From Roseomonas sp. GC11 (lineage in GTDB: Bacteria; Pseudomonadota; Alphaproteobacteria; Acetobacterales; Acetobacteraceae), in assembly GCF_024437745.1 (NCBI RefSeq), contig NZ_JANFNY010000047.1:1-40329 (forward strand): a DNA stretch of 40,329 nt. Reading direction: 5' to 3'. Below are positions 5,863-24,938 of this stretch, piece after piece; position 1 is the stretch's first letter; every line of letters starts with the position of its first letter. Made by a program: the position numbers and the translations under genes. Under the pieces are notes generated by a model, which did not search any database, was not told the origin of the DNA, and worked only from the letters and a program-made list of their open reading frames with translations.

Positions 5863-5938
5863 GTCCCCATCGTCTAGAGGCCTAGGACACCAGCCTTTCA
5901 CGTTGGTAACACGGGTTCGAATCCCGTTGGGGACGCCA
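5863..5938 (+). tRNA. tRNA-Glu (TTC anticodon)
   Basis: A complete 76-base cloverleaf with encoded CCA. The acceptor stem pairs GTCCCCA (5863-5869) with TGGGGAC (5928-5934), the discriminator is G5935 and CCA is 5936-5938. The anticodon stem CCAGC/GTTGG (one G-T pair) encloses loop CTTTCAC, with anticodon TTC at 5897-5899. The T-loop GTTCGAATC is canonical. Its 3' end is also the insertion target of the neighbouring island, which left the gene intact. Confidence 0.98.
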
Positions 5939-5982: not shown

Positions 5983-5992
5983 CGGCCCGACC

Positions 5993-7485: not shown

Positions 7486-7515
7486 CGAAGGGCGCCTCGA
7501 TTGGGGCGCCCTTCG
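7486..7515 (+). terminator. Strong hairpin, terminator-like
   Basis: Perfect 11-bp inverted repeat CGAAGGGCGCC / GGCGCCCTTCG with an 8-base loop, followed only by TGCTTT. It follows the gene remnant ending at 7432 and insulates the restriction operon from upstream transcription. The weak T-run limits confidence. Confidence 0.6.
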
Positions 7516-7663
7516 TGCTTTCCGGTGCTCATCTCCCTCAATGCGCACGAGCTCGGTTCAGAGCCGCAGAGGTGACCTCTTGCTCCAGTTCTTGTTCTTG
7601 ATATGTTCTAAATGGTCTCCGGTCAGTCCTCGCGCGGAAGCTTGTTCATATGTTGGAGGATCC

Positions 7664-7918
7664 ATGCTAGCTTATGAGCCGCGGAGTGCCGCGGACTGCA
7701 GCTGTGGAGTGGGAACCTTGGGCAAGGATGGCCGAGACGCGCATCGGGTGAGCGTCACGCTGAGCAAGAGCCAGCATGACGAGCTGGCGCGGATCGCCCG
7801 CAAGCAGGGCATGACGGTCGCCTGGCTGGTCCGCCGCGCCGCCGAGCGCCTGATCGAGCAAGAGAATGGTGGCCCAATGCTGCCGCTGATGCTGGATCCC
7901 CAGCATGCGCAGCGCTGA
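7664..7918 (+). CDS. Ribbon-helix-helix regulator of the R-M operon
   Basis: An 84-residue protein whose C-terminal half carries a ribbon-helix-helix pattern: a beta strand RVSVTLS then two helices (KSQHDELARIARKQG, TVAWLVRRAAERLIEQ). RHH proteins dimerise and bind operator DNA. I chose ATG 7664 because GGAGGA (7655-7660) precedes it; the upstream extension is Ser/Cys-rich and unconvincing. Its end overlaps the methyltransferase start by 14 bp, so it is first in the operon. By position it may act as the controller that times methylase and endonuclease expression; that role is inference. A toxin-antitoxin partner is not seen. Confidence 0.72.
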   Translation: MLAYEPRSAADCSCGVGTLGKDGRDAHRVSVTLSKSQHDELARIARKQGMTVAWLVRRAAERLIEQENGGPMLPLMLDPQHAQR

Positions 7919-9065
7919 GCTGTTCTCGGGTTGTGGCGGCTTGGCGCTGGGGATGTCCCGGGCCGGGTACGAGCACGCCCTCATGGCTGAGTACGACCAT
8001 GACGCCGTGGAGACGGTGAAGCACAACAAGGCGAAGGGGGTTGAGCACGTCGCCTCCTGGCCGGTCTCCGCGATCCAGGACGTGCGGCAGATCGACTGGC
8101 AGCCCCTCGCCTCCACACTCACGGTGATCTCCGGCGGCCCGCCCTGCCAGCCCTTCGGCATCGGCGGCAAGAAGCGTGGCCACGAGGATGATCGCGACAT
8201 GTGGCCCGAGGCCATCCGCGCCATTCGCGAGGCGCGCCCCGACGGCTTTCTGTTCGAGAACGTGCGCAATCTCACCGGTCCCAGGTTCCGCAGCTACCTG
8301 GACTGGATCGTGTTGCATCTCACCCATCCCGGCTTGCCGCGGGGGGAGGGCGAGACCTACGCCGGTCACCTGGAGCGCCTCAGCCAGTTCCAGGGCGGCG
8401 AGGAGTACCGCGTCCTGTGGCAGGTTGTGAACGCGGCGGACTATGGCGCGCCGCAGATCCGGCACCGCGTGCTGATCTTCGGTGTGGCTGCCCACCTGGG
8501 CATCGCGCCCGCCACCATGACACCCACCCACTCCCGCGACCGCCTGCTCTGGGATCAGTTTATCACGGGGGACTACTGGAAGCGGCACCGGATGAAGCCG
8601 CAATCGGAGCCGGCCGATTCGCGCGACCTGGCGCGGGTCGCGCGCCTGCGGCTGTTGAAGGAGCCACCGGCCGGGAAGCCTTGGATGACCGTGCGCGACG
8701 CCCTGAATGGACTCGGTGAGCCGAACGGCCGGAACAACCACATCCCGCAACCGGGTGCGCGGGTCTATCCGGGCCATACCGGGAGTCCCCTGGACCTGCC
8801 CTCCAAGGCACTGAAGGCCGGGGATCATGGGGTTCCGGGCGGCGAGAACATGATGGTGAAGGAGGACGGCACCGTCCGCTACTTCACCACGCGCGAGGCC
8901 GCGCGCCTGGTTGGCCTGCCGGACGACTACGCCTTTCCGCGCTCCTGGACGGAGAGCATGCGGCAGCTCGGCAATGCGGTTCCCGCCCAGCTCGGGGAAG
9001 CAGCTGGTCGATGGCTCAAGGAGATGCTGACGAGCGTGGAGCTGAAGGGCCGCCAGGCGGCTTGA
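7905..9065 (+). CDS. DNA (cytosine-5-)-methyltransferase
   Basis: Methylates cytosine at C5 in its recognition site using S-adenosylmethionine, protecting host DNA from the adjoining endonuclease. The 386 residues show the C5-MTase motifs in order: motif I FSGCGGLALG at the N-terminus, motif IV GGPPCQPF with catalytic Cys81, motif VI FENV (about 121), motif VIII near QIRHRVLIFG, and motif X MRQLGNAVP near the C-terminus. Length is normal. It overlaps the RHH gene and is followed by the Eco29kI-like endonuclease gene, so it is probably the cognate methylase, possibly for CCGCGG; specificity is inferred only from the nuclease family. Confidence 0.95.
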   Translation: MRSAELFSGCGGLALGMSRAGYEHALMAEYDHDAVETVKHNKAKGVEHVASWPVSAIQDVRQIDWQPLASTLTVISGGPPCQPFGIGGKKRGHEDDRDMWPEAIRAIREARPDGFLFENVRNLTGPRFRSYLDWIVLHLTHPGLPRGEGETYAGHLERLSQFQGGEEYRVLWQVVNAADYGAPQIRHRVLIFGVAAHLGIAPATMTPTHSRDRLLWDQFITGDYWKRHRMKPQSEPADSRDLARVARLRLLKEPPAGKPWMTVRDALNGLGEPNGRNNHIPQPGARVYPGHTGSPLDLPSKALKAGDHGVPGGENMMVKEDGTVRYFTTREAARLVGLPDDYAFPRSWTESMRQLGNAVPAQLGEAAGRWLKEMLTSVELKGRQAA

Positions 9066-9154
9066 GGCGGGCAAGCCTGGGTTTGTTCTTCGCCGATTCA
9101 GGCCCTACCCTTGGCGCTCCCGACTCCTCTAGCTCGAAGAACGCCGCCCCGCGC

Positions 9155-10108
9155 ATGGCCCTGCCTCCCGATAAAGCCGCCCTCGCCGCGCTGGAGCGCG
9201 CCCTCTCTGACGTGCTGCGCGTCGCCGGCGACGAGCCGACCCCGCATGTGGTGCGTCGCATCCGGGACGGCCTGGCCAGGCACGCCGAGGCGGTGGAGGC
9301 GGTCCGATCGGAGACGGATCCGATCGGCATGCCCCGCGCGAGCTTCGATCCCTCCGATCCGAAGACCGTGGGCCGCATGGTCTCATTGGCGCTGCTCGCC
9401 CAGCCGCTCATGCCAATCGCGGAGGTGCGCCCTGCCTATGGATCCGGGGTCTACGCCATCTATTATCGTGGCGACCATCCCTTCTACGCGGGGATCAGCG
9501 GCACCGAGACCCCCATCTATGTCGGCAAGGCGGATCCCTCCAAGGACGATGCCAGCACCTCCCGCGAGCAGGGGCCGAGGCTGACAGGACGCCTCACCGA
9601 GCACGCCGGTACCATCGCCACAGCGGCGCGCGCCTCCGCCGAACCGGACTTCCCCGCGCACCTGCATCCGCTCAGGCTCGAGGACTTCTGGTGCCGTAGG
9701 CTGGTCTGCTCCACCAACGCGCAGCTAGTCGCCGAGAAGCACCTGATCCAGATGTTCTGGCCGCTGTGGAACTCTGAGACCAAGGCCTGCTGGGGCATGA
9801 GCAAGCACGGCGACGCGGCGACCACGCGCGCGAACAAGCGCTCGCCCTGGGATGTGGTGCATCCCGGTCGTGCTTGGGCGGCCGATCCGCGCTTGCAGGA
9901 TTCGCTCAGCTTGGACGAAATCCAGCGGCGGATCGAGAAGACCCTGCGGGAGACGCCGCCGCGGCGTGATCACGCCATGCTGCTCGAGGAGGTGCTGATG
10001 GCATTCCGGCAGGATGAGGGACCACCTGCGGTGAACGACGCGGAACCTCCGGTGGGCGACAAAGTGCTCGGGCCCAGGGATGACGAGGCAAGTGGCCCGG
10101 AAGACTGA
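9155..10108 (+). CDS. Eco29kI-family GIY-YIG restriction endonuclease
   Basis: Type II restriction endonuclease with a GIY-YIG nuclease fold. The signature is GVYAIYY (Tyr100) then IYVGKA (Tyr122, Lys125), followed by GRLTEH with Arg146 and His150, Glu194 in VAEKHL and Asn206 in FWPLWN. The Arg-x3-His spacing and the 12-residue Glu-to-Asn spacing match what I recall for the active site of Eco29kI, which cuts CCGCGG. At 317 residues it is longer than Eco29kI, with an extra N-terminal helical region and a charged C-terminal tail. Start ATG 9155 is a choice; an in-frame start at 9011 would overlap the methylase gene and add 48 low-quality residues. Its end overlaps vsr by 29 bp. Confidence 0.85.
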   Translation: MALPPDKAALAALERALSDVLRVAGDEPTPHVVRRIRDGLARHAEAVEAVRSETDPIGMPRASFDPSDPKTVGRMVSLALLAQPLMPIAEVRPAYGSGVYAIYYRGDHPFYAGISGTETPIYVGKADPSKDDASTSREQGPRLTGRLTEHAGTIATAARASAEPDFPAHLHPLRLEDFWCRRLVCSTNAQLVAEKHLIQMFWPLWNSETKACWGMSKHGDAATTRANKRSPWDVVHPGRAWAADPRLQDSLSLDEIQRRIEKTLRETPPRRDHAMLLEEVLMAFRQDEGPPAVNDAEPPVGDKVLGPRDDEASGPED

Positions 10109-10562
10109 TCCCGCCGCGCCGGTGGATCCCGCCCGCAGCACTCAGATGGCGCGGATCAAGGGCAAGGACACCCAGCCGGAGCTACGGGTCCGGCGGGCCT
10201 TCCACAAGGCTGGATTGCGATACCGGCTGCACGACAAGCGGCTCCCGGGGCGACCGGATATTGTCTTCCCGTCACGCAAGGCCGCCGTCTTTGTGCAGGG
10301 GTGCTTCTGGCACCGGCACCCCGATCCAGCCTGCCCATTGACCCGGACACCGAAGAGCCGGCTGGAGTTCTGGCAAGGCAAGTTCGCCGAGAACCGGGCC
10401 CGCGACGCCAGGAACCGCGCCGCGTTGGAGGCCACCGGATGGCGTGTGTTCGAGATCTGGGAGTGCCAGATTCACGATGCCGCTAAACTATCAGTTGTTA
10501 CTAACGAGCTTAAAGCGTTGCCAATCTGTAGAGCTCGTCATTCACCCGGATGGATATCTTGA
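10080..10562 (+). CDS. vsr: Very short patch repair (Vsr) mismatch endonuclease
   Basis: Vsr nicks beside T:G mismatches created when 5-methylcytosine deaminates, and so often accompanies C5 methylases. The 160 residues carry the family pattern: STQMARIKGKDTQPELRVR with Glu34, GRPDIVF with Asp60 as the metal ligand, QGCFWHRH with His78, then EFWQGKF and WRVFEIWECQI. It overlaps the endonuclease gene and ends the operon. The last 25 codons shift to AT-richer usage and do not look like Vsr; the IS6 remnant follows at once, so the true C-terminus may have been replaced by the insertion. The catalytic core is complete. Confidence 0.93.
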   Translation: MTRQVARKTDPAAPVDPARSTQMARIKGKDTQPELRVRRAFHKAGLRYRLHDKRLPGRPDIVFPSRKAAVFVQGCFWHRHPDPACPLTRTPKSRLEFWQGKFAENRARDARNRAALEATGWRVFEIWECQIHDAAKLSVVTNELKALPICRARHSPGWIS

Positions 10563-10930
10563 AGAGGAAAGGAATTCATGTCCGTCGTATCGCGTCGACG
10601 CTGCACGAGGATGTCGAGCACGACCCCATCCTGATCCACCGCGCGCCAGAGCCAATGCGTCACACCGGCTATCTTGATTACGACCTCATTCAGGTGCCAC
10701 TTGTCACCAACATAGGGCAGCCTGCGCCGGATCTGGTTGGCGAAGGTCTGGCCGAACTTGAGCACCCATTGCCGCACTGTCTCGTGGCTGACCGTGACGC
10801 CCCGGGCAAGGAGCTCATCCACCATCCGCAGGCTCAGAGGGAAGCGGAAGTAGAGCCAGACGGCGTAACTGATGATCTCGGCTGGGAACCGGTGGCCGGC
10901 ATAAATGGGGCAGGTGGGCGTCGCCACCCG
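10538..10930 (-). pseudogene. IS6-family transposase remnant (left copy)
   Basis: Minus-strand reading shows the IS6 DDE transposase core: HRFPAEIISYAVWLYFRF, ETVRQWVLKFGQ, GDKWHLNEV with the first catalytic Asp, and LWRAVDQDGVVLDILVQRRRD with the second. Homology ends after QRRRD (about 10585), so the last catalytic Glu is lost and the tail to the stop at 10538 is foreign. The frame continues upstream to 11167 with residues I cannot assign. The part from 10788 to 10920 is nearly identical, in inverted orientation, to 17902-18031. Confidence 0.85.
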
Positions 10931-11341
10931 TTTCGGTTGCGTGGCCTGGACTGCGCCGGCAAGCCCGCCAACTTGGCGATACCCCTCGCCCAGCACCCAG
11001 AGATGCGCTTCCGCTAGGCCGTGCTGTTCGACCTGGCGAAGCTCGTCATCCAGGTGAAGCCGGAGGGCCTCGTCGCCAAGCGTGGCCGGGGAGCAGGTAG
11101 GTTCGCATCCGAGGCTCCTCCTGCGGCATGCGGGATGGGGACAGCTGAGAGTAGAGAACGCCTGCAACCCAGGGCGGCACGGATGCCCGAACGCACGTCC
11201 CGTTAATTTATCATACCTCTAAAAAACGGGGTCGCGCAGAGTCAGTTTGGTAGCGTAAGATGAACAGATAAGCGCCCCGCAATAAGTTGGCGGACGGCGG
11301 ATTTCTATGTCTGACCAGAAACCCGGAGCGACGCCGGTCGA
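10931..11341. other. Spacer upstream of the helicase/kinase gene
   Basis: The minus-strand frame fused to the IS6 remnant contains a protein-like stretch (DEALRLHLDDELRQVEQHG) of unknown origin and may be part of another broken gene. From about 11205 the DNA becomes AT-richer (TTAATTTATCATACC), the likely promoter zone of the gene at 11342, but no convincing -35/-10 pair could be fixed. Confidence 0.4.
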
Positions 11342-14300
11342 ATGCGAATCAACCTGCTTAACTCGCGAGGCATCCACGCTCGCGAGGTCACCGGCATCGA
11401 CTCACTAAGGACCCGCCTGCCTTCGGAATGGTTTGGGTTTGCCAATTTGGAGATGTTGCAGAGGGCGGATCGCCCTCGACAGATCGACGTCGTGCTCGTC
11501 ATCGATGATCGAATACTGATCGCGGACCTGAAGGACTGGCGCGGCGCCATCAAGAGCGACGGTCAGACTTGGTACCAGAATGGCCGTGTGATGGAGCCAT
11601 CACCAGCATTAAAGATCGTCGACAACGCGCGTATAATGGCTGGTGAACTACGCGCCTTCGTGCGTGCTAGCGCGTCCCGGAACGCCGTTGCGGGGGACCA
11701 AGCTGCGGTGCGAGAGCCATTCGTCCAAGGACGCGTCATCCTCACCAACAAATGCCACATCGAAGAGATGCCGGAGGAAGAGCGCCAGTATGTGGTGACG
11801 ATGGATGACCTCTGCCGCGCGCTGACCGTGTCCGACAAGAGAGAACGGTATCGCCTTTTGGGCGAGCCGACGCGCCTGCCCCGGCCGTTTCCGCTGACCG
11901 ATAAAGAGGGCTTCTGGAAGAACAAGCTCGAGGCGTTCTTCCGGGCAAAGGAACGCTTCCGGCCGCAGGAACTCCTCTACGCCGATCACCGCGTCTGCTC
12001 GGATGCGACCTTCGTGCACGCTGACGGGCTTTACGACGAATTCGACGTTGAAGAGGTGGGGGGCGGGAAGTCCCCGGGGCTCCTGCGCCGGTGGGATTTC
12101 TCCAAAGCGCCGACCCGCTTCGCCGCCGAGGAAGCGCGCGGTGAGATCGCGGGCCGGGAGCAGCGTGTTATTGCCTTTCTGACGGAGAGGGCACCCAACC
12201 TGGAGGCGGCGCTCCTCCGGGCGAAGGCGCGCGACCGCGAGAATACCGTTCGGTATTGGGAAATTTTTGAAAAGCGTCGGCCGCTCCGGAGGCTTCGCGA
12301 GTTCCTTCGGGCCAACGGCGACCAGCTTCCGCAGCGCGCGAGAGAGGATCTAATCCGCTCCCTGCTGAACCACGTCGCCACGATGCACCGCCTTGGTGTG
12401 GCGCACTGCGACCTCGGATTCCACAGCATCTGGCTGGAACTGCCGACGTCCGTCCGGCTTTCCCACCTCTTGGCCGCTCACTATCCTGAACTCCGCACGC
12501 TCGGTCAGGAACGTTTCTCCTTCCTGGCGGGTGACACGGTCCTCCCTGAGACGCATCTCGGCATCACCGCGACACCGTTCCAAAAAGACGTGTTCTTGCT
12601 CGGCGTGGCCTCACACGAGCTGGCCTTCGGCGTCCAGCCTCACAGGAACACGCCGGAAGATGCGCCGAGCTGGAAGCCCGAAGTGGACGGCGATGGTCGG
12701 TTCCGGCATCTGCGCGGGTGGTTCGAGAAAGCCCTCGCGCTAGAGGCGGGGCAGCGGTTCGCCGATGGCCAGGAGATGCTCGACGCCTTCAACGAGGCCA
12801 CCGGCGCACGCCCTGTGTCTGCTGAGGCTCTCGAAAGGCTGGAGCGCTTCCGCAAATGGCCCAGCATCATGGCCCTGTTCCGCGAGTACCCGTCCACGCA
12901 CACGCTGCGCGAGGAGGGCTCGCTCGGCGCCTACCGGTCGGACCGCAGCGGTGAGTCATTCCTAGTGAAGTACTGGAGCGCGTCGCACGCTGGCGACCTT
13001 CGTACGGAGGCAACTCGCCTCCTCGCGTTCTTCGACAAGGCCGATCACTTGGCCTGCCGGGAGATCGTAGGCGTCTGCGGCCCGGTACAGGCGGGATTCG
13101 CGGGGGACAATGTAGTCCTCGTCCAGCGCTTTATCGCCGCCCCCAACCTTACAGAGGAGTGCACCGCTGCCCCCCTGCGGTGGCGCCAACCGGAACTGGT
13201 CTTGCACTTCGCCCTTGCACTTTGCGAGACGGTGGGGCGGCTGCACGACAACGGGAGCGCTCACGGAGACATCAGTCCGACAAATATCCTCGTTGTGCGC
13301 GAGGACGGCGGCGCTGCATCGCCTGTGCTCGTGGATATTTTGGATCTCGCCGCTGCGGGTGACGGCGAGCTCCGAACCCCAGCCTACGCGCCGCCCTATG
13401 CAGCAGAGGCTGCGGAGCGCGACCGCTACAGTGTCCTTCAGGTTGTCGACGAGCTTCTTGCTGCCTGTGACTTGGCAGAGGCCTGTGCCGACCGTCTACG
13501 CGCCGCCATGGACGTCTGCCGGTCCGGTCCACCGCCGCTCGCCAGCCTGAGCCCTCTCGTTGAGGCTATCGGCCAGATCCTCGCGCCCAGTGCCGAGGAG
13601 ACTATGCTCCGCCTACGTGCCGTGCTGCCGCGCCAAGCGCCCCAAACGCTGCTTCCCGACGACGGGCACTACCATGTGGTGTTGGAACCCCCGCGCGGGC
13701 GCGGACCGCGGATCCTGGTAGCGGGAGCAAACGCGGAGCTGGTTGTGGAGCTGGATCGGGCTCGCGGTTTGGTGTGTTCCGCCTCCGTTAGAGCGCTCCC
13801 ACAGTCGGAGGTGGCTTGGCGCCAGCGGAAAGCGGAGACGACGTTCGCCGGCGTGGTCGAGGTAGCTGACGGAGCGGCGCGGGATTTTACGGGACTCGAC
13901 CCCCTCTTGGAATTGCCGGAGATACGCGCTGCGCTTTCCAGAGCTTCGGAAGCCAAGGCGCCTGTGACGGACCTGCTCGCCCAAGATGATGGACTGAGTG
14001 GCAGTGCTGGTGACCGGTCTGTTGTGCGCGAGGATCTGGAGGCAGGTACGGCCGACGCGGAGCCGGTCCCGCAGCTCGATGTATCGGGTCTGTGGCGCAC
14101 GCTTTTGGAGGTCGAGGCCGAGCAATTCACCACCGTCATGACGGACGACGAAAGCTCCTTCTCCAAAAAGCTTAAGCGACACCTTGTTGGCTACGCACTC
14201 ACAGCAGGCACGATCGATTATGACCCCGACGAGCCGGTGCAGGTTGAAATCCGGACGAAGTCGGGGGACTGGCGGCGGATTGGCCGCCTCGATCTTGATC

Positions 14301-16318
14301 AGACCAATTCCGATGCCCTGGCAATCGACGCCTCCGCAACTTGGGCAGCCGACCGGGGGCAGTTGCTCACGGAGCCGTCCGAGCTGCGCCTGATAGGCCT
14401 CCGCGAGGCTGACAGCCGGAACAGGCGCCAACTGGCAATTGATCTGATTCTGGAACGGAAATCTGGTGTACCAAATCTGGTCGAGTATTTTTCGCTGGAC
14501 ACGGATGTAAGTTCCCTAAGTTTTTACGCGGAAAAGCCAGCCCCCGCCAATCCTGAGGAGATCGCTGCCCGATACAACTTGAACTCTTCTCAAGCATCTG
14601 CGCTGGCTGATCTTTGGGCGTCGCGTCCATTAGGTTTGCTGCAGGGCCCGCCCGGGACGGGGAAGACCACCTTCATTGCCGCAATGGTTCACCACGCCCT
14701 CACAACCGGCGCCGTGCGCAACGTCCTTCTCGCAAGCCAATCGCATGAGGCAGTGAACAACGCGGGCGAAGCCATCTTGAGGCTATTCCGACGCTTTGGC
14801 GGCGATCCCAACCTCATCCGGGTCGGACAGGAGGGCAATGTATCGGAGGCGTTGCTTCCCTTTCACTCGGCCCGGGTGGAGGCGCGCTACCGGGATCAGT
14901 TCCGCGCGAGGCTCCGGGAGAAGCTCCTGGAACTCGGGCGGCGTTTAGGAGCACCGGAAGCTTTCCTCGACGACTTCTTCTTCCTAGAGGCCACGGTGCA
15001 CCCGATCCTGCGGCGGATCGCAGAGACCGTCGCGGAGGAGGGCGATGCCATTACGGCTGAAGCACAGGAGGGCCGGTCGGCGGAACTGGTCGAGACAGTC
15101 AGGCAGCTAATGGATCAGCACGGCCTGCCGGCGCTCCCCGCGCCCGAACTCGCAAAGCCCGGCGCATTCGACCGCCTCGTCTACATGCTCGCCGAAGCGA
15201 CACCCGGGACATCGCGGGAGCAGGTGCGACGCGCACTCAATTTGGCGGAGCTTTGCCGTGATTGGCTAAACAGCGTGAGCAACCGCCGCAGGAACTTCGA
15301 GTCGTTCCTCGTAGGAACCCGCCAGATCGTCTGCGGGACCTGCGTCGGGCTCGGGCGATCGAGCGTTGCGCCACTGCCTGGTAGCTTCGACCTCGTGGTG
15401 ATCGACGAGGCCGCGCGCTGCACAGCGAGCGAACTAGCCATCCCCATGCAGGCTGGCCGCTGGGTAGTCCTCGTGGGTGACCATATGCAGTTGGAGCCGC
15501 ACTATGAACTCCCAGTGCTCAATGAGACGGCGCGGCGACTCGCAATCCCTGAGGGCACTATCCGTCAGAGCGACTTCGAGCGGGCCTTTGGATCCCCTTA
15601 TGGCGCGGTCGCTGGGCGTGATCTGCGGGTTCAGTATCGGATGCTGCCGGCGATAGGACGCCTCGTGTCCCACAGCTTCTACGGCGGACGCCTTGAGCAC
15701 GGCCGCAGCGAGCCGGTTGTCCCACCCGGGGCACTACCGTCGGGTTTCGAGGCGCCAATCCTATGGTTCGATACTTCCGGCAGAAGCGCTGCGGCATTTC
15801 AGTCCTCTGCGGGCAAGGGCCAGAGGAGTCTCTGCAACGAGACCGAGGCAGAGGCGGTTGCCGATCTGCTTCGACGCCTTGACCAGCACCCGCCGTTCCA
15901 TGAGTGGCTGCGGCAGCGGCGGGATGAGCACCAAGCAATCGGCGTCATTTGCATGTACTCGGCTCAGCGTGATCTGGTCCGTCGAAAGATGGTTCTCGCG
16001 TCGCTGACCCCTGCGATGCGGCAGGCGTGCAAGGTAGAGACGGTCGACAGCTACCAGGGCAAGGAGAACGACATCGTCGTGCTCTCGCTGGTCCGGAACA
16101 ACGACTGGGGGCCTGACGAAGGAGGCGGCCGAACCATCAAGGAAGGCTTCATGGCTCGTGCCAACCGCATCAATGTGGCGCTCTCCCGTGCCCGGGACCG
16201 GCTCGTGATCGTCGGCAGCCTTCACCGATGGCCCGAGGGCGGTCCGATGGCTCGGGTCGCCGACTTCGTGCAAACCCTTGCCGATGAGGGGGAGGCGAGC
16301 ATTGTCGAGAATGTCTGA
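11342..16318 (+). CDS. NERD / tandem protein-kinase / Upf1-type helicase fusion, candidate anti-phage protein
   Basis: A 1658-residue multidomain protein. Residues about 20-140 form a NERD (nuclease-related) domain with QIDVVLV (Asp49) and ADLKDW (Lys64). About 210-490 resembles a protein kinase but is degenerate: HCDLGFHSIW (His355, Asp357) lacks the usual Asn and no DFG is evident. About 510-760 is a second kinase-like domain with FLVKYW (Lys543), Glu556, HGDISPTNIL (Asp643, Asn648) and VDILD (Asp665), so all key residues are present. About 1075-1650 is a superfamily 1 Upf1-like helicase: GPPGTGKT (1102-1109), VIDEAA (Asp1355, Glu1356), VDSYQGKEND (about 1569) and NVALSRARDRL (about 1611). 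The layout resembles MkoA of type I Mokosh defence systems. It overlaps the next gene by 8 bp. The start has no strong ribosome-binding site; earlier starts are blocked by lack of in-frame codons. Confidence 0.88.
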   Translation: MRINLLNSRGIHAREVTGIDSLRTRLPSEWFGFANLEMLQRADRPRQIDVVLVIDDRILIADLKDWRGAIKSDGQTWYQNGRVMEPSPALKIVDNARIMAGELRAFVRASASRNAVAGDQAAVREPFVQGRVILTNKCHIEEMPEEERQYVVTMDDLCRALTVSDKRERYRLLGEPTRLPRPFPLTDKEGFWKNKLEAFFRAKERFRPQELLYADHRVCSDATFVHADGLYDEFDVEEVGGGKSPGLLRRWDFSKAPTRFAAEEARGEIAGREQRVIAFLTERAPNLEAALLRAKARDRENTVRYWEIFEKRRPLRRLREFLRANGDQLPQRAREDLIRSLLNHVATMHRLGVAHCDLGFHSIWLELPTSVRLSHLLAAHYPELRTLGQERFSFLAGDTVLPETHLGITATPFQKDVFLLGVASHELAFGVQPHRNTPEDAPSWKPEVDGDGRFRHLRGWFEKALALEAGQRFADGQEMLDAFNEATGARPVSAEALERLERFRKWPSIMALFREYPSTHTLREEGSLGAYRSDRSGESFLVKYWSASHAGDLRTEATRLLAFFDKADHLACREIVGVCGPVQAGFAGDNVVLVQRFIAAPNLTEECTAAPLRWRQPELVLHFALALCETVGRLHDNGSAHGDISPTNILVVREDGGAASPVLVDILDLAAAGDGELRTPAYAPPYAAEAAERDRYSVLQVVDELLAACDLAEACADRLRAAMDVCRSGPPPLASLSPLVEAIGQILAPSAEETMLRLRAVLPRQAPQTLLPDDGHYHVVLEPPRGRGPRILVAGANAELVVELDRARGLVCSASVRALPQSEVAWRQRKAETTFAGVVEVADGAARDFTGLDPLLELPEIRAALSRASEAKAPVTDLLAQDDGLSGSAGDRSVVREDLEAGTADAEPVPQLDVSGLWRTLLEVEAEQFTTVMTDDESSFSKKLKRHLVGYALTAGTIDYDPDEPVQVEIRTKSGDWRRIGRLDLDQTNSDALAIDASATWAADRGQLLTEPSELRLIGLREADSRNRRQLAIDLILERKSGVPNLVEYFSLDTDVSSLSFYAEKPAPANPEEIAARYNLNSSQASALADLWASRPLGLLQGPPGTGKTTFIAAMVHHALTTGAVRNVLLASQSHEAVNNAGEAILRLFRRFGGDPNLIRVGQEGNVSEALLPFHSARVEARYRDQFRARLREKLLELGRRLGAPEAFLDDFFFLEATVHPILRRIAETVAEEGDAITAEAQEGRSAELVETVRQLMDQHGLPALPAPELAKPGAFDRLVYMLAEATPGTSREQVRRALNLAELCRDWLNSVSNRRRNFESFLVGTRQIVCGTCVGLGRSSVAPLPGSFDLVVIDEAARCTASELAIPMQAGRWVVLVGDHMQLEPHYELPVLNETARRLAIPEGTIRQSDFERAFGSPYGAVAGRDLRVQYRMLPAIGRLVSHSFYGGRLEHGRSEPVVPPGALPSGFEAPILWFDTSGRSAAAFQSSAGKGQRSLCNETEAEAVADLLRRLDQHPPFHEWLRQRRDEHQAIGVICMYSAQRDLVRRKMVLASLTPAMRQACKVETVDSYQGKENDIVVLSLVRNNDWGPDEGGGRTIKEGFMARANRINVALSRARDRLVIVGSLHRWPEGGPMARVADFVQTLADEGEASIVENV

Positions 16319-17855
16319 TGCCCGCAGCACCGGCAGTCCCAAGCCGGGTCCAGATGCCGGAAGTGGGACGCTGAGGCTATCGCGCAGAGCGAAGGCACCG
16401 GCCAGAGAGATGGTAGCAGTGGACAGCCTCCATGTGCGCTTGCCCTGCAGATCCTTCTTGGTGAACTACAAGATCGCCGAAGCTAGTAAGCACACGCTTA
16501 CAAACGAGTTCCTGCTGCGGTTACTCCGCACGGCAGGCGACCTGCTTGAGGATGTTGTTGCCGAGTTTTTCGGCTTCGATGCAGCCGAGACACGGTACGT
16601 GATTGACGAAGCAGAGGGACGCGGCTTGGTCTTCCGCATGGGTGGCCGGGTGCACTTGGCTGCCGCAGGGTTGGCCGCATTCGACAAGGGCGGTGACAGG
16701 CCACAACTATACGAGGTTCACTCCCGGCGTGGCAGATTCGACTTTGACGTAGTGTCGTTCGCACCCGCCGAGGCGGAACACCTGACTCCCTTCACACGGG
16801 CACTCTCCGAACTTCCGGTCCTTTCGCAAGATAACCTTGCTCGAGCTTCGGAGACCGCCCGGTATGCGTTCCGGCGGCACTTCCGCGAACTTCACATCGG
16901 CCGACGCGGGACGGACCTAGAGGGCATGACCCTCTACACAATCGATGATGTCGTCTCTGACCGCCGCAGGGACGCGCTAGTTCCGCTCGGCGTGGACGTG
17001 CCCTTGGACACGCCCAAGCGCACGCAGCCGAATCTGCAGGAGTGGAGCGCCGACCACGATCTCCCCGGGCGGGAGGACGTGGTGTCCAGCTGCGCTGCCT
17101 TTGTCCGAAGCCTTGAGGTTGAACACTCGTGGACGGCCGACGAAGCCTACAAGCTGCTTGTAGATGTGGCGCCCGAGCAGACGGCTCGGTTCCGCCGGGT
17201 GGCCGGGTTCGATCGCCTCGCCTTCTTCCGTCATGGAGCGGGCAGGACTGGTGATGTGCAGGCAAACCGAAGGACAGTGCCGATCATCGGTACCCTATGG
17301 ACCGCCCAGAACGTCGGGCAACTAAGTGCCGCCATTCGCTTGCTGAAGCGCGAGAAGGTGGCCAGCGGTCCGCCTTTGGTGTTTTGGCTTAGGCCGGCGC
17401 TACCTCATTGGGGTAGCAACCGCAGCCTCCCTGAGTTTGTTGCAGGGCTGACGGGTGAGCTGGAGCCGCCCGACGAGGACGGGCCTGAGCCGCAGTATAC
17501 GAGCATTGGTGCTGGCGCGACCATCGGTGGCCCGCTCCAGCAGCGGTGGCGCGGCGCTTTCGACAGATTTGTGCCACTGCATCCGGAAGGGGTGCCGCCT
17601 GGCCTAGAGGTCTTTCTCATTCCGCGCCGTTTGGTTGCAGTGCTTGTGCATGGGGCGCTGGACGGCAGTGGCTTCCCTGTGCCTGTAGGCATTCTGTCCG
17701 CTGATCCCGGTGCTGTAGAGCGCGCCCATGGCATTGTCGACGAGATCCTCGCGCGAGCGGCGCCCGCTACGACCTGGAATGAAGTCGAAACTGAATTGCG
17801 CGAAGCCCTTTACCAAGCCTTAGACTTTGCGGCTTCGCCAGGAGCTGCTCGTTAA
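16311..17855 (+). CDS. Partner of the helicase/kinase protein, unknown function
   Basis: A 514-residue protein starting at ATG 16311, which overlaps the previous stop by 8 bp (ATGTCTGA), so the two are co-translated. A further in-frame ATG codon upstream (16278) would add 11 residues. About residues 60-130 (LTNEFLLRLLRTAGDLLEDVV, then YVIDEAEGRGLVFRMGGRVHL) look like a winged-helix region. The remainder is mixed alpha/beta with FLIPRRLVAVLVHG near the C-terminus and no enzyme motif I can name. In type I Mokosh the second gene encodes a phospholipase D-family nuclease, but the HxKxxxxD motif is absent here. It may be the effector or target-recognition subunit; that is inference from the coupling alone. 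Confidence 0.8.
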   Translation: MSDARSTGSPKPGPDAGSGTLRLSRRAKAPAREMVAVDSLHVRLPCRSFLVNYKIAEASKHTLTNEFLLRLLRTAGDLLEDVVAEFFGFDAAETRYVIDEAEGRGLVFRMGGRVHLAAAGLAAFDKGGDRPQLYEVHSRRGRFDFDVVSFAPAEAEHLTPFTRALSELPVLSQDNLARASETARYAFRRHFRELHIGRRGTDLEGMTLYTIDDVVSDRRRDALVPLGVDVPLDTPKRTQPNLQEWSADHDLPGREDVVSSCAAFVRSLEVEHSWTADEAYKLLVDVAPEQTARFRRVAGFDRLAFFRHGAGRTGDVQANRRTVPIIGTLWTAQNVGQLSAAIRLLKREKVASGPPLVFWLRPALPHWGSNRSLPEFVAGLTGELEPPDEDGPEPQYTSIGAGATIGGPLQQRWRGAFDRFVPLHPEGVPPGLEVFLIPRRLVAVLVHGALDGSGFPVPVGILSADPGAVERAHGIVDEILARAAPATTWNEVETELREALYQALDFAASPGAAR

Positions 17856-17869
17856 GCGCGGATCGGGCA

Positions 17870-18044
17870 AGTGAACCGGTGCTATGCGCTTTTTGGGGCC
17901 GCGCTCACCTGCCCCACTTATGCCGGCCACCGGTTCCCAGCCGAGATCATCAGTTACGCCGTCTGGTTCTACTTTCGCTTCCCTCTGAGCCTGCGGATGT
18001 GGATAAGCTCCTTGCCCGGGCGTCACGGTCAGTGAACCGGTGCT
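17870..18044 (+). repeat. 14-bp direct repeat flanking the right IS6 fragment
   Basis: AGTGAACCGGTGCT occurs at 17870-17883 and again at 18031-18044, in the same direction, on either side of the truncated IS6 sequence. It could be a target duplication or the trace of a slippage or illegitimate-recombination event. Confidence 0.7.
17902..18031 (+). pseudogene. IS6-family transposase fragment (right copy)
   Basis: About 130 bp nearly identical to the minus-strand copy at 10788-10920, encoding the YAGHRFPAEIISYAVWFYFRF segment. Small deletions relative to the left copy (in GCGGATGTGG and GCCCGGGCG) break the frame, so it is dead. It lies just after the two-gene candidate defence unit and in opposite orientation to the left copy. 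Confidence 0.85.
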
Positions 18045-18411
18045 CGGCGGCCGGTCGGCTCGCGCACCGGCAGAGCGTTGTCGAACTGCGGGTTGCCGAC
18101 ATCCATGCGTGGATGCTGGAGGCCAGGAGCAGGCTGTTGCGTCACAACGACCTCGCCAAGGCAAAGGACTATGCCCTCAAGCGCTGGGCCGCATTCATCC
18201 GGTTCCTCAGCGATGGCCGGATCTGCCTCAGCAACAACGCGGCCGAACGCGCGCTCTGCGGCATCGCCCTCGGTCGAAAGGCATGGCTGTTCGCTGGCAG
18301 TGATCGGGGCGGCGAGCAGGCCGCGATGATGTATGCGCTCATCACCACCGCGAAGCTGAACGACGTCGACCCACGCGCCTGGCTTGCTGACGTACTAGCC
18401 CGAATTCTGCC
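18045..18411 (+). pseudogene. IS66-family transposase (TnpC) C-terminal fragment
   Basis: The C-terminal part of an IS66 transposase: HAWMLEARSRLLRHNDLAKA, YALKRWAAFIRFLSDGRICL, SNNAAERALCGIALGRKAWL, GSDRGGEQAAMMYALITTAK and DPRAWLADVLARI. The N-terminal two thirds are missing. It is fused in frame behind the IS6 fragment, so a chimeric 228-residue frame (17879-18565) exists, though it is unlikely to work. Downstream sequence to 18565 is AT-richer and unassigned. Confidence 0.85.
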
Positions 18412-18660
18412 CCGACCAGGGCAGCCTCTACGGGATTGTAGGCGGCTGGCCGGTTTGCGGATTTCTTTGCGAAAAAAACCTCGTATTTTTGTGCTTCAGA
18501 AGATTTTCCTGAAAATTCAATGTCTTGTTCTGGATGGGTGGCAACCCGTGAATTATGCGGGCTAGCCAGGGTGGCTGACCGCCCCGCCTCCAGGCTCGAC
18601 GAGTTCCTACCGTGGAACTGGAAGCGCACTCAGGCGCCTGCGACCGCCGCCGCCTGACCG

Positions 18661-18873
18661 TCAACCGCCGCCATCGCAGGATGGGTACACCCCGATCTGC
18701 GACGCGGCCTCCGCAACCAGCACCCCGTCGAGGAATGCCCTGTGCGGATACTGGAGCGCATATCTTGGCAGAGCAGCCTTCACCTGCTCAGCGGTGCCAG
18801 GAAACTGGCCTTCGGAGCGTACCCGCCAGCCCTGACCGTCCTGACGGTCGAACTCAATGCGAAGCTGAGCCAT
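18661..18873 (-). CDS. Small hypothetical protein (70 aa)
   Basis: Reads MAQLRIEFDRQDGQGW then residues for a short alpha/beta protein (EGQFPGTAEQVKAALPRY, HRAFLDGVLVAEA). AGAGGG lies upstream of the ATG at a workable distance. Composition is protein-like and codon use fits the host. No family recognised. It is divergent from the RHH gene at 18990, sharing an intergenic region with a perfect inverted repeat. Confidence 0.6.
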   Translation of the reverse strand: MAQLRIEFDRQDGQGWRVRSEGQFPGTAEQVKAALPRYALQYPHRAFLDGVLVAEAASQIGVYPSCDGGG

Positions 18874-18903
18874 GAAGCCCTCTGGCGCCTGTGTCTGTAT
18901 ACG

Positions 18904-18939
18904 ATAACCGATAGCGGTTATTGATCAACCGGCAATTGC
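18904..18939. promoter_or_regulatory. Candidate operator between divergent small genes
   Basis: A perfect inverted repeat ATAACCG-ATAG-CGGTTAT (18904-18921) is followed by palindromes TTGATCAA (18921-18928) and GCAATTGC (18932-18939). This cluster lies between the minus-strand gene at 18661-18873 and the plus-strand RHH gene at 18990, where an autoregulatory RHH dimer would be expected to bind. Confidence 0.45.
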
Positions 18940-18989
18940 GGCAATGAGATTTTTTGACGCGATTTCCGATTGCGTTTACTCGTCGGCAG

Positions 18990-19181
18990 ATGGGACGCCC
19001 GCCTCTCAACGTCAAACCAACGATGGTCCGCCTGACGGAGGATGTCCGCCAGCGGATTGTCGCTCTGGTGGGTTCTAACCGTATGGCTGCTTTTATCAGG
19101 CATGCGATTGAAACCGAGCTGTGCCGGCAGGAGCAGGCGTCCGGCGAGCCTTCTCAGAACGATTCCGGCAGAACTGACTGA
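18990..19181 (+). CDS. Ribbon-helix-helix DNA-binding protein
   Basis: A 63-residue protein beginning MGRPPLNVKPTMVRLTEDV, with strand TMVRLT and helices EDVRQRIVALVG and NRMAAFIRHAIETELCRQ, a standard RHH/CopG-like fold; a Ser/Asn-rich tail follows. Start ATG 18990 is chosen over the longer frame at 18954 because homology-like sequence begins there, although no clear ribosome-binding site precedes it. TTGACG at 18954-18959 may be a -35 element. Probably a local transcription regulator; an antitoxin role is possible, but no toxin gene follows (the next 690 bases are gene-free). Confidence 0.65.
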   Translation: MGRPPLNVKPTMVRLTEDVRQRIVALVGSNRMAAFIRHAIETELCRQEQASGEPSQNDSGRTD

Positions 19182-19189
19182 CCTACTTT

Positions 19190-19249
19190 CATGAGTGCAC
19201 GCTTCCCGTACTGCGATGCCTGAGCCGTAAAAATCCAAGGAAAAAGGCC
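19190..19249 (-). repeat. Dispersed element, copy 1
   Basis: Read on the minus strand it shares the pattern CTTTTTCC, then TTTT, then GGCAYCGCAGYACGGGAA with the copy at 19725-19789. Both encode similar peptides (FPWIFTAQASQYGK versus FPDFWVPKAPQHGK), but neither has a good start codon context, so it is treated as a repeat. Confidence 0.45.
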
Positions 19250-19724
19250 AAGCTGCGCCCGCGCAGGGTGCACGAAGAAGTCAGCGGGATAGAGCCTTGT
19301 CCTTCTCCGGGTATAGGAGAAGCGTCGCGGGCAGGATTTTCCTGACACAGGGAAAGCCACGCCCTGGCGGTAGCCTTCCTCTTGGCAACCCCAGCCTCCA
19401 GGGCCGGCCTAATGGCTTTCTGGGAAGAGGGCCGGCATTCCTGGATCAGCTGAATAGGGTTTCGAGCCTATCAGGATACCGCCCTGGGTCTTTCAGGCGG
19501 ACACCCAGGGCCATGAGATATCTGCAAGTTCCAGTAGCCGCAGGACGCCCGGGCACGACCGGAAGGCTTGGCCGCTCTGGAAGGCGGAGGGTCATTTCAC
19601 CTCTCACTCGACCGACCCGAGTGCCTCCTTCCCTCCCTCTCCACGATAGGCCGGTGCGGAGCGGGGGCTGGACCCTTGGAGCCAGAGTGGCAGCATAACC
19701 GTAGAGACAGCCATCCTTCCTGGC

Positions 19725-19789
19725 AATGAAGGGCTGTGTTTTCCCGTGCTGCGGTGCCTTCGGAACCCAAAAGTCAGGGAAAAAGCCGT
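19725..19789 (-). repeat. Dispersed element, copy 2
   Basis: Diverged relative of 19190-19249 in the same orientation, about 535 bp away. A weaker match to its core (CAGCACGGGAA) occurs at 23069-23096 upstream of the replication operon. Confidence 0.45.
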
Positions 19790-19868
19790 TTTCTGCCAAC
19801 TCGGGCGGAGGGAGCACGGGGGGCAGAAAGGGTTTATTCCCTACAAAAATAAATTATACCTATCATAA

Positions 19869-20159
19869 TTATGTCTTTGATCGACAAAACCTATCAATTG
19901 CCTTTCCTCGTCGGCCTTCCCCCTTCGCTGCCCGCAGCAACCCATCCAGCAGGGCGCGATGCTGCGTGGCGTCGAGGGGGCGGCCCTCTGTGGCCTGGGC
20001 GCGGGCGATTTCGGCACGCTCCCAGGCCAGTTCAGGGTCCGGCCAGGTCAGGGCTTCCAGGGCCTCGGCCTGGGCTTTCTGATAGGCGGCAGCCAGAGCG
20101 GGCGCGCCGGTCCGCGTCGTATCAGGCGGTGGCGGCAGGTGGCGGCGCCACCCACTCAC
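19869..20159 (-). CDS. Small hypothetical protein, end of replication operon
   Basis: A 96-residue protein starting at a GTG that overlaps the stop of the DUF3987 gene (GTGA, 20156-20159). The middle (AAYQKAQAEALEAL, WPDPELAWERAEIARAQATE) is strongly helical and acidic-basic balanced; the C-terminus is basic (KGEGRRGKAIDRFCRSKT). No known family. Coupling to the primase-type genes suggests a role in element maintenance. An upstream in-frame extension to 20243 is possible but Pro-rich. Confidence 0.55.
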   Translation of the reverse strand: MSGWRRHLPPPPDTTRTGAPALAAAYQKAQAEALEALTWPDPELAWERAEIARAQATEGRPLDATQHRALLDGLLRAAKGEGRRGKAIDRFCRSKT

Positions 20160-21688
20160 CCGTGGAGGCCCAGAAGCTGGGGATGGACCTCCCAGTCTGA
20201 GCGCGGGCGCCCCGGGCCGCGCGCCAGGGCAGGGCGCACCCATCCGAGCTCGGCCAGATCGCGCAGGGCGGCTTCGATGCGCGGGGCGGTGGCAAGGCCC
20301 GGGCCTTTCGGATCGCGGCGCAGGGCTCTTGCGTTCAGCACCGCCGGGCGCGGCGACTGGCGCAGAAGCCAGCGGGCAAGCTGGCGGCTGTCCCGCTCGA
20401 CCTCCGGCAGGGCCGCTTCACCGAAGCAGCGCCGCACCATGGGCAAGGCATAGTCCAGCAGGAAGGCCTGCGCGCGCGCCGCGGTCCGGACGTCGATATG
20501 GTCGGGCGGCGGAGTGCCATCCGGGGCCACCAGCCAGTCCAGATGCGCCAAGATCACCGCGAGGCGCACGGCCATGCCCGGCACCTTGCCCAGCCAGGAC
20601 AGCAGCAGGCCTGAGGCCGCGGCCTCCTGGTCGCGCACCTCGCCGCGCCATTCGTTGAACGCCTCGGCCGCTTCTTCGCTGAAGGGCAGCAGCACGGGTT
20701 CGCCCTCCGGCATGGGCAGTTCCCGCAGCCGCCGCAGCGCCGGCATGAGCGGGAAGGGCAGGCCCTCGCCGCCGGGGCGCCGGGGCCGGCCGGAGAGCGG
20801 TGCGGGCCAGATGTAGAGAAAGCGGGCCGCCAGGCCGTCATCCTCGCCGCTCAGCATGGCGGAATGCAGCCGGTCCGGCTGGATGCCGCCGAGGATGCCC
20901 CAGGTCAGGTGCGGGATATCGGTGCTGTTGTCGCCATCCTTCACCCGGTCGGCGGTCCAGCGGTTGCCGTCATAGGTTTGCAGCCAGAAAGCCCGTTCGG
21001 TGCCGGCGCTGCTGGCGGTGCCATTGCCACCATAGCGGCCCATCCCGGCCAGCCAGCCGGCCAGTTCGTCACGCCACAGCAGCAGGCCGCGCGGATTTGC
21101 CCGGCTCAGGTCGCGGGCGCTTTCAATGGTCGGGTCAGTGCTCAGCACCCGGCGCTTGCCGGGCTTGTCCGGTTCCCGCGCGGCGGCGGGCTGGAGCGGC
21201 GGCGCCAGCTTCCTCTTCACCGCCTCCTTCACCTCATTCTGCCAGAGGCTGAGATATTCCTTCGCCTCCTGGCCGGCGGTGTGGAACTGGCGCATGCGCT
21301 CATCCCAGTCGCCGTTCAGGGCAAGGGTCAATTCGGAGAGCGGCTCCGTCACCATGTTCAGGGCGGGGCTTTTGTTGGCGCTGGGATTGCCGACGCAGAT
21401 GACGTTCAGCACGGGAGGCTGCCGCCATTTCCCCCAGGGGCGGCCCCACCGGGCATTGCCCAGGGTTGCCCCGACCACCGCCAGCAGAGGCACGGCCACA
21501 TAGTCGGGTGGCGCGCCCGCCTCGTCGGCCGCCCGGGTGATCCAGCGCGCCCAGGCGGGTGAGAAGAGCTGTAGCGGCAGCGGGGGCGGTGCAAGGGTGT
21601 CTGTGGTGGCGATCTCGGTGCGCAGCATGGGCCACGCAGCCGTTTCCGCCTCCTCGGGCAGAGTGTGGAGGGTGAAGCCGTCAGCCAT
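20156..21688 (-). CDS. DUF3987 family protein (primase/helicase-type, mobile-element replication)
   Basis: A 510-residue protein of the DUF3987 type common in phages, plasmids and islands, where it sits next to Toprim primases and is presumed to act as a helicase-like ATPase. Visible are the P-loop-like CVGNPSANKSPALN, the Walker B-like LLLWRDELAGWLAGMG, and WGILGGIQPDRL. The canonical Gly before Lys in the P-loop is replaced (SANKS), as in many members. ATG 21688 overlaps the preceding stop by 8 bp; the longer frame to 21829 adds Pro/Cys-rich residues and is rejected. Confidence 0.85.
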   Translation of the reverse strand: MADGFTLHTLPEEAETAAWPMLRTEIATTDTLAPPPLPLQLFSPAWARWITRAADEAGAPPDYVAVPLLAVVGATLGNARWGRPWGKWRQPPVLNVICVGNPSANKSPALNMVTEPLSELTLALNGDWDERMRQFHTAGQEAKEYLSLWQNEVKEAVKRKLAPPLQPAAAREPDKPGKRRVLSTDPTIESARDLSRANPRGLLLWRDELAGWLAGMGRYGGNGTASSAGTERAFWLQTYDGNRWTADRVKDGDNSTDIPHLTWGILGGIQPDRLHSAMLSGEDDGLAARFLYIWPAPLSGRPRRPGGEGLPFPLMPALRRLRELPMPEGEPVLLPFSEEAAEAFNEWRGEVRDQEAAASGLLLSWLGKVPGMAVRLAVILAHLDWLVAPDGTPPPDHIDVRTAARAQAFLLDYALPMVRRCFGEAALPEVERDSRQLARWLLRQSPRPAVLNARALRRDPKGPGLATAPRIEAALRDLAELGWVRPALARGPGRPRSDWEVHPQLLGLHG

Positions 21689-23044: not shown

Positions 23045-23110
23045 GCGGTCTTCTCCGGGAGTGTCAGCCTTCCCGTGCTGCCGGGAGGCTTTGGGTGGTG
23101 GCCATGTCAG

Positions 23111-23129: not shown

Positions 23130-23213
23130 TCTCCGGGGCGTGTGGCGGTGGCTGTGGCCGCAGCTTTGCCCTGGAAAGGACAGGACGCTGCGATCCACGG
23201 GCCGGCGTTCAGG

Positions 23214-23501: not shown

Positions 23502-24938
23502 TCAGGCCCTGGCCGAACCCGCCGGCATCGTGCCGCGCTGCGGCTGCGCCTCGCCCGCGCACCAGGCGCCCCAGGCCTCCATCAGCGGGATGCGCCGGTC
23601 AAACATGTCGGAGCGCCGGTAACGCCCCTCCACGGTGCTGTCATCCCTGTGGGCCAGGGCCTTCTCGGCGGCTGAGGAATCTGCCGGGCGGGTGTCGTCC
23701 ACCCAGGTGCGGAAGCTGCCCCGGAAGCCGTGTGGCACAGCCTCCCGCCCGTCAGGATCGCGCCAGGGGGATGGGGCACCTTCCGGGCGGTCCTCATTCA
23801 TGCGCTTCATCACGGCGGAGAGCGCCATGTCGCTCAGCGGTGCGGTGCCCTTCGCATTCGGGAAGATCAGTGTATCGCCCATCAGTCGGGCCAGACGAGG
23901 GACATCGGCGGCCCCGGCGGCCACCCCGGTCCGCTGGGTATAGGCCCGCGCCAGGGTCGCCAGGGCGGCAGCGGACAGCGGCAGGCGGTGGGACGCCACC
24001 GGGGCGGAGGCCTCGCCCTTCATGCGCTCTCCAGCGATGGTCAGGGTCGGCGATCCCTCGAAGGAGAGGTCGCTCCACCGGACGCCGCGCGCCTCGCTGG
24101 AGCGCAGGCAGGTCAGGATCAGGAAGCGCAGCGCCAGGGGCGCGATGCCCTCCCGATGGTCCAGCATCTGGCAGAAGGCCGGCAGTTGCGCCCAGGGGAG
24201 GGAAGCCTGTTTCCGGCTGCCCGGCTGTGCCGAAAGGCCCATGGTCCGCAGCATCCTGCGATCCGCCGGGTTGTCCCCGCTGCGCCAGCCGCGGACAGTG
24301 GCATAGCGCAGGATGCTGCCCAGACGTTCCAGCACCTTCTTTCCGACGCTCGGCTTGTCGGTCCAGAGCGGTTCCAGCACGCGCAGCACATCCTCGCGCC
24401 CGATCTCGGCCACCGGCCTGCTGCCCAGCAGGGGGAAGGCATGCAGCTCCAGGGAGGAACGCCAGAGCTGTGCCGTGCGGTCATTCTTCCAGCCCGGGGC
24501 TTCCTTGCGGATGTAGAGTTCGGCGACGGCGCGGAAGGTGCGGCCCTCGGCCTCGATGCGGGCGCGCTGCTCGGCCAGGGCGGCCTGGCGCTGGTCCCGC
24601 CGCTCCTGGATGGGGTTGCCATCGGCGCGCGCCCTGGCGCGCAGGTCGCGGGCCTTTTCGCGGGCATCCTTCAGGCTGACGGCAGGCCAGCCACCCAGCC
24701 CCATATCGGAGCGCTTGCCGTGGATGACCGTGCGCAGCTCCCAGACTTTGGCGCCGCTCGGATAGACCGCGAGCGCCAGGCCGTTGCCATCCTGCAGGCG
24801 GTATTTTTTCGCGCGTGGCGCAGCGTGCCTGATGTCGAGGGGAGTCAGAGGCCGGCGGCGGCTGGAGGCCCTGGCCTCCCCGGCCGGCGCGTTGGAATCC
24901 CTGTCTTGGGAGTTGGAATCCCTATCGTTCAGGCCCAT
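23502..24938 (-). CDS. Site-specific tyrosine integrase (DUF4102 / P4-type)
   Basis: A 478-residue integrase that recombines the island with the tRNA-Glu 3' end. It has the N-terminal DUF4102 arm-binding domain (KKYRLQDGNGLALAVYPSG, about 44-62), a core-binding SAM-like region (about 135-235) and the catalytic domain with Arg279 (CLRSSEARG), Lys308, His403 and Arg406 (HGFRGSFR), His430 (ALAH) and the nucleophile Tyr440 (GRYRRSD). All catalytic residues are present, so it is probably active. The N-terminus has a repeated RDSN motif encoded by a tandem DNA repeat. A TATAAT box lies 12 bases before the ATG, so the mRNA should have almost no leader. Confidence 0.95.
   Translation of the reverse strand: MGLNDRDSNSQDRDSNAPAGEARASSRRRPLTPLDIRHAAPRAKKYRLQDGNGLALAVYPSGAKVWELRTVIHGKRSDMGLGGWPAVSLKDAREKARDLRARARADGNPIQERRDQRQAALAEQRARIEAEGRTFRAVAELYIRKEAPGWKNDRTAQLWRSSLELHAFPLLGSRPVAEIGREDVLRVLEPLWTDKPSVGKKVLERLGSILRYATVRGWRSGDNPADRRMLRTMGLSAQPGSRKQASLPWAQLPAFCQMLDHREGIAPLALRFLILTCLRSSEARGVRWSDLSFEGSPTLTIAGERMKGEASAPVASHRLPLSAAALATLARAYTQRTGVAAGAADVPRLARLMGDTLIFPNAKGTAPLSDMALSAVMKRMNEDRPEGAPSPWRDPDGREAVPHGFRGSFRTWVDDTRPADSSAAEKALAHRDDSTVEGRYRRSDMFDRRIPLMEAWGAWCAGEAQPQRGTMPAGSARA

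Follow-up and report, generated by a model that had tools for sequence, protein, structure and literature searches.

The original report of the Mokosh defence system, by Millman et al. in 2022, reportedly places a kinase domain in MkoA and describes MkoB as a phospholipase D (PLD) protein. In the literature that could be searched, one source mentions Mokosh together with NERD: a 2023 perspective article that tabulates Mokosh type I with NERD and PLD (PMC10952713). In other sources, MkoA is classed in SF1_Upf1 (PMC10925250), Mokosh is described as degrading viral transcripts (PMC11291487), and PglW and a subset of DndF are shown to have NERD followed by an inactive and then an active kinase (PMC12839542, PMC10853773). 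Here we analysed a 40,329-nucleotide stretch of Roseomonas sp. GC11 (contig NZ_JANFNY010000047.1, positions 1 to 40,329), called the window below, and found a pair of adjacent genes that is probably a NERD-type Mokosh anti-phage system. Judging from the protein sequences, its NERD nuclease would take the role that PLD has in another MkoA/MkoB subtype.

The gene pair and its family

The pair consists of two genes:

11342..16318, + strand: mkoA (gene 1), NERD type, open frame of 1658 amino acids (aa)
16311..17855, + strand: mkoB (gene 2), short form, 514 aa from the first ATG

With the ATG start of gene 2, the two genes overlap by 8 bp (16311-16318); the furthest TTG start gives a frame of 525 aa (16278-17855). 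The gene 1 protein matched the PADLOC MkoA model PDLC03921 with 1507 bits (aa 1-1656), and the gene 2 protein matched the MkoB model PDLC03923 with 273 bits (aa 34-482). The two matches are adjacent, as PADLOC defines Mokosh. Because both proteins match these models over most of their length, the pair is assigned by sequence to the catalogued Mokosh family. It shares the adjacency and gene order of its relatives, and no model-level difference from PADLOC Mokosh (PDLC03921 and PDLC03923) was found. The first-pass annotation, made from the sequence alone, had proposed a two-gene Mokosh-like system, which agrees with these matches, but it overstated the pair as an unrecorded one: PADLOC models exist, and NERD is tabulated for type I in the perspective article (PMC10952713). 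We make no claim that the two Mokosh subtypes described below are unpublished.

Domains and catalytic residues of MkoA

Reading frames and Pfam bore out the earlier description of gene 1 as a NERD domain, two kinase-like domains and a Upf1-type helicase in 1658 residues, with an 8-bp overlap to gene 2. The protein, encoded on the + strand, is divided as follows:

aa 20-108: NERD nuclease domain (Pfam NERD, E 1.4e-9)
aa about 225-430, limits by eye: pseudokinase, kinase 1 (Pfam Kdo at 310-369, above its cut-off)
aa about 520-700, limits by eye: kinase 2 (Pfam Pkinase at 536-655, below its cut-off)
aa about 700-1060: stretch without domain assignment, between kinase 2 and the helicase
aa 1079-1626: Upf1-type helicase (Pfam AAA_11/AAA_12, E 1.8e-39 and 4.5e-38)

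The NERD feature tabulated for type I in the perspective article (PMC10952713) is therefore present in the window system, with the Pfam match given above. The key residues of the window MkoA are D49, D62 and K64 in NERD, K543, D643, N648 and D665 in kinase 2, and K1108, D1355, E1356 and R1616 in the helicase. We aligned NERD-type MkoA proteins and found that the triad D49, D/E62 and K64, which forms a D-(D/E)xK pattern, was kept in 24/24, indicating that the NERD site of the window MkoA is an intact site of PD-(D/E)xK type; the suggestion in the first-pass annotation that NERD may supply the nuclease gained support from this. These counts leave out L020, in which another frame holds the 5' part of MkoA; L025, of which only 574 aa remain; L030, with a fragmented MkoA and a truncated MkoB; and L057, whose MkoA is truncated by IS3. 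L068, which has an insertion sequence (IS) inside MkoA, entered them with its 5' part only.

In kinase 1, Arg replaces the ATP-binding Lys (R249, 24/24 NERD-type MkoA) and no clear DFG was seen in the alignment by eye, so this domain is probably inactive. In kinase 2, K543, D643, N648 and D665 were all kept in 20/24 proteins; L064 and L065 deviate at D643 and N648, L022 and L054 at K543. The catalytic Asp D643 was present in 22/24 and the DFG-like Asp D665 in 24/24. Kinase 2 of the window, with its catalytic residues present, looks intact, and the kinase expected in MkoA of Mokosh type I is thus found through K543, D643, N648 and D665, with Pfam Pkinase below its cut-off. The closest relatives of the gene 1 protein among solved structures were NAM7/Upf1 helicases (E 4.5e-30). 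By its residues, the window helicase is intact and of Upf1 type, and the helicase of superfamily 1 that characterizes MkoA of Mokosh type I is present.

PglW of BREX type 2 and NERD-kinase DndF show the same order of NERD, inactive kinase and active kinase as the window MkoA. In the published descriptions, however, other domains follow there (in PglW, winged helix-turn-helix domains (wHTHs) and an inactive STAND NTPase (iSTAND)) and no Upf1 helicase, and the partner genes are others. The BREX type 2 combination of a PglW carrying C-terminal wHTHs/iSTAND with BREX partners was not found: the best PglW stretch in the window MkoA covers aa 12-157 (77 bits, in a model of 1403 positions), the C-terminus is the helicase, and no BREX genes were detected among the window open reading frames scanned, a subset of all of them. 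The kinase MAD6 of the methylation-associated defence system gave a partial match to aa 14-497, the NERD and kinase region, scoring 114 bits where the cut-off is 460; its 612-position model has no room for the helicase.

MkoB and its PLD-bearing relatives

PADLOC holds a second model pair, MkoA PDLC03920 and MkoB PDLC03922, and this MkoB bears PLD. Two full-length PDLC03922 matches hit Pfam PLDc_2 above its cut-off. The model was matched in 116/299 genomes; in many of them the matches were partial, to part ~280-600, and several of these showed clear HxK...D...GSxN motifs. We assembled a sample of six PLD-type systems, two from genomes and four opened of 48 plasmid records. Like the window pair, they are adjacent genes with a Upf1-type helicase, a kinase-like part and a related N-terminal region of MkoB. 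Their MkoA has 1111-1199 aa, one degenerate kinase and no detectable NERD, whereas the window MkoA has 1658 aa and NERD; their MkoB has 579-639 aa with PLD, whereas the window MkoB has 514 aa and no recognisable PLD. Each MkoB of the 6/6 systems has two HxK motifs in PLD-like settings. In the six MkoA proteins, the NERD profile gave a best E of 0.38, and NERD was not among the first 25 of 40 families in a Pfam scan. The PLD that Mokosh type I carries in MkoB was not found in the window MkoB, and the pair is therefore filed under the PADLOC family and not under PLD-type Mokosh.

The kinase of PLD-type MkoA has lost the HRD Asp in 6/6 (L051, L052, L059-L062) and, by eye, the DFG Asp too, so it looks like a pseudokinase. 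This bears on an alternative that we regard as rather unlikely, in which the kinase, as effector or main switch, would phosphorylate proteins of the host or the phage and arrest growth, with NERD as a backup nuclease. For PglW and DndF, a co-effector role of the kinases has been proposed; PglW and a subset of DndF share the order of NERD and the two kinases with the window MkoA, and D643 and D665 are nearly constant in NERD-type MkoA. Against it, kinase 2 residues were altered in 4/24 NERD-type MkoA and the HRD Asp was lost in 6/6 PLD-type MkoA, so that kinase activity seems dispensable across the family.

In the systems examined, the two nucleases were found to be complementary: NERD was present in 24/24 MkoA with partners lacking a detectable PLD, and PLD partners occurred with MkoA lacking a detectable NERD in 6/6. 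In a helicase tree, 19 NERD-type and 6 PLD-type rows formed separate clades with full support, two of the PLD rows being long branches and the root being placed by midpoint only. We lean towards two parallel Mokosh subtypes, in which the nuclease has moved between subunits and exactly one has been kept. One subtype would have NERD at the MkoA N-terminus and usually an active-looking kinase, the other a dead kinase and PLD at the MkoB C-terminus, and both would share the Upf1 helicase and the MkoB wHTH region as a constant core. On this reading, calling MkoB a PLD protein is right for one subtype only, and kinase activity would be confined to the NERD subtype.

The N-terminal regions of the short MkoB, the form found with NERD-type MkoA, and of the PLD-bearing MkoB were compared by hhalign, and the results (27 sequences) showed 93.7% and a score of 53.7, against at most 16.9 in 30 column-shuffled controls. 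The PADLOC model of PLD-type MkoB also matched the window protein (E 0.011) and 14/15 other short MkoB at E <=0.1, L031 being the one missing; all these matches stop by model position 257, and PLD matches are located mostly from ~280 on. Other comparisons spoke against this kinship: a hidden Markov model of the six PLD-type N-termini gave a weak best match to short MkoB (E 0.0057), the short-MkoB profile gave a best E of 0.17 with PLD-type MkoB, and the first profile comparisons, which had fewer sequences, were uninformative on both PLD and the N-terminal region, with the first hhalign against kinship. Taken from the sequence profiles, the two N-terminal regions are related. The winged helix suggested earlier for gene 2 is plausible at ~60-126 but weakly shown: in an AlphaFold2 (AF2) model of poor quality, with a mean predicted local distance difference test (pLDDT) of 33.7, 10-residue means of 70-81 were reached only there, in a segment whose helices lead into two strands (107-116) and a further helix. 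We place a putative wHTH-like region at this position.

No PLD was recognised in the short MkoB, as had been noted for gene 2. The best Pfam match of the gene 2 protein had E 0.29, PLD was found by Pfam at E 0.1 in 0/21 short MkoB, and the intact HKD site whose presence would have made this ordinary Mokosh was absent: the HxK(x4)D/E motif occurred in 0/16, the window protein included. A profile of the PLD-type C-terminus gave best E values of 0.85 (n=21) and 0.33 (n=6, later ones). As a positive control, it recovered 22/22 motif-bearing PLD halves at E <0.05; the control is silent on very degenerate PLDs because the halves were chosen by motif, and one came from a protein of the profile. The short-MkoB C-terminus aligned to the PLD-type C-terminus by hhalign with 15.9, within what the 30 shuffled controls gave (maximum 18.7). 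A degenerate PLD in MkoB, considered as a candidate, was unsupported by Pfam, by this profile with its control and by hhalign with shuffles.

The C-terminal region of short MkoB has near-invariant W367, E433, H447 and G460, so that a catalytic or binding role of this region is possible. It could be a highly diverged PLD half-domain or some other new nuclease, with gene 2 encoding the effector and NERD being secondary, which we judge unlikely. The 13-residue spacing of H447 and G460 in the window resembles the H-to-G spacing of PLD (HxKxxxxD...GSxN), and part of the region aligned weakly to PLD halves in hhalign (score 17.0, P 0.054, without a shuffle control). For a diverged PLD, the failure of the motif, Pfam and profile searches, and a C-terminal alignment no better than shuffled columns, stand against it. 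Profile searches of MkoB against solved structures gave chance-level matches alone (best E 0.38), and no MkoB relatives were found in viral contigs.

The effector is most likely NERD, with MkoB as a subunit that binds nucleic acid or serves as an adaptor. MkoB and the helicase would detect nucleic acid of the phage in the form of RNA, R-loops or single-stranded DNA; the NERD nuclease would be released or licensed by the kinase and by movement of the helicase, with the kinase tuning the complex; and NERD would cut phage or cell nucleic acid, RNA and DNA both being possible. The first-pass annotation had left a choice between a new effector and a NERD nuclease. Its second option is favoured: as the NERD site appears intact, gene 2 need not encode a new effector, though it may.

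Several points weigh against NERD as the effector that replaces PLD. Just six PLD-type systems are in the sample, 26 Agrobacterium records of the 48 lying outside it, and 12 were newly opened among the 160 plasmid records with a NERD part, most being unopened. H447 was found in 25/27 and G460 in 26/27 short MkoB (one of the 27 is cut short), and these residues could mark a catalytic site in MkoB. Both AF2 models, built from 2-sequence alignments, are of low confidence (mean pLDDT 33.7 and 32.5) and unusable, so the case for the NERD site is one of sequence. The pair points to a candidate effector domain in a widespread, little-studied system and to a natural swap, in which the same type of helicase and adaptor is combined with two unrelated nucleases.

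Recurrence and genomic setting

The MkoB search found one locus in the genome_contigs set, 9 of 72,556 plasmid records, and 13/398 genomes of a phylum draw, 6 of them strong and including the window's own. In a class draw, the MkoB profile matched 1/385 genomes, the window's own; G187, another genome of this class, turned up in the phylum draw. A second place in the genome of the window (L004, G000:C132:27190-27942) matches the PLD-type MkoA model in its kinase part (E 7.4e-26) and is probably an unrelated kinase. The window MkoB is at most 37% identical to 20 aligned relatives. A helicase reading frame lay directly upstream of MkoB in 15/15 non-window places examined, which leave out seven weaker phylum-draw matches (L012-L018); L024, the contig of L012, has no complete MkoB. 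MkoA was full length in 12/15 and broken in L020, L025 and L030. The recurrent pairing predicted earlier was thus observed, with MkoB not occurring mostly apart from the helicase gene.

A NERD-pseudokinase query matched 160 plasmid records, and in 11 of the 12 opened, a partner of 458-518 aa adjoins MkoA; in one of these, L068, an IS splits MkoA, and in L057 the rest of the system was lost to IS3. Six later partners matched the short-MkoB profile at E <=1.8e-60, and five earlier ones had entered this profile by position and alignment. Relatives show the same domain order and again a close or overlapping pair of genes, so the window pair is not a chance arrangement. Of the complete E. coli genomes, 309/5426 carry a pair like that of L063 with a query coverage of 80% or more, mostly with 80-90% identity.

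That the pair rides mobile elements and plasmids would fit a housekeeping or element-maintenance module that is not immune, but we consider this very improbable: the pair is listed as defence by PADLOC, the window locus and several relatives lie among defence genes, and its occurrence in the class and phylum draws is patchy. In Polaromonas sp. JS666 (L055), a NERD-type pair (8001-14415) lies within a BREX-1 operon (3477-17089), with pglX on one side and pglZ on the other, and on an A. baumannii plasmid (L064, 1-15943) the pair is downstream of BREX-1 pglZ-brxL and flanked by two IS6-family copies. Other defence neighbours are AbiH in L031 and SAVED-domain genes in L065 and, beside a PLD-type system, in L059.

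In the window, the IS remnants and defence genes reported earlier around the pair were confirmed by Pfam and PADLOC:

5863..5938, + strand: tRNA-Glu (ttc), probable attachment site (ARAGORN)
7905..9065, + strand: C5 cytosine DNA methyltransferase of the restriction-modification cluster (PADLOC MTase_II, E 4.6e-107; TIGR00675, E 3e-40)
9011..10108, + strand: Eco29kI-type restriction endonuclease (Pfam RE_Eco29kI, E 7.9e-28)
10080..10562, + strand: Vsr mismatch endonuclease (TIGR00632, E 2.7e-38)
10538..11167, - strand: IS240-type transposase remnant upstream of the pair (Pfam DDE_Tnp_IS240, E 8.1e-12, profile 2-47 of 139)
17879..18565, + strand: IS66 transposase C-terminal remnant downstream of the pair (Pfam DDE_Tnp_IS66, E 1e-23, profile 186-283 of 284)
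23502..24938, - strand: tyrosine integrase at the far island end (Pfam Phage_int_M, Arm-DNA-bind_3 and Phage_integrase)

A 19.2-kb integrative element (5924-25097) carries the pair and lies in the tRNA-Glu gene; besides the integrase, it has an HTH_17 gene and genes of DUF3987/Toprim type. A 16-bp exact repeat at 5924-5939, made of the last 15 bases of tRNA-Glu and one more, recurs at 25082-25097, and a 22-bp repeat is found at 5993 and 24942, just within both element ends. A ribbon-helix-helix gene overlaps tightly with the C5 methyltransferase, Eco29kI-type endonuclease and Vsr genes in 7541-10562. The G+C content bears out the island: it is 0.59-0.66 at 11-20 kb, compared with 0.71-0.75 over the first 6 kb, and is back at 0.71-0.74 in the primase-like part of the island (20-23 kb). 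The two flanking IS remnants have in common a 133-bp inverted repeat, 95% identical by blastn (10788-10920 and 17902-18032).

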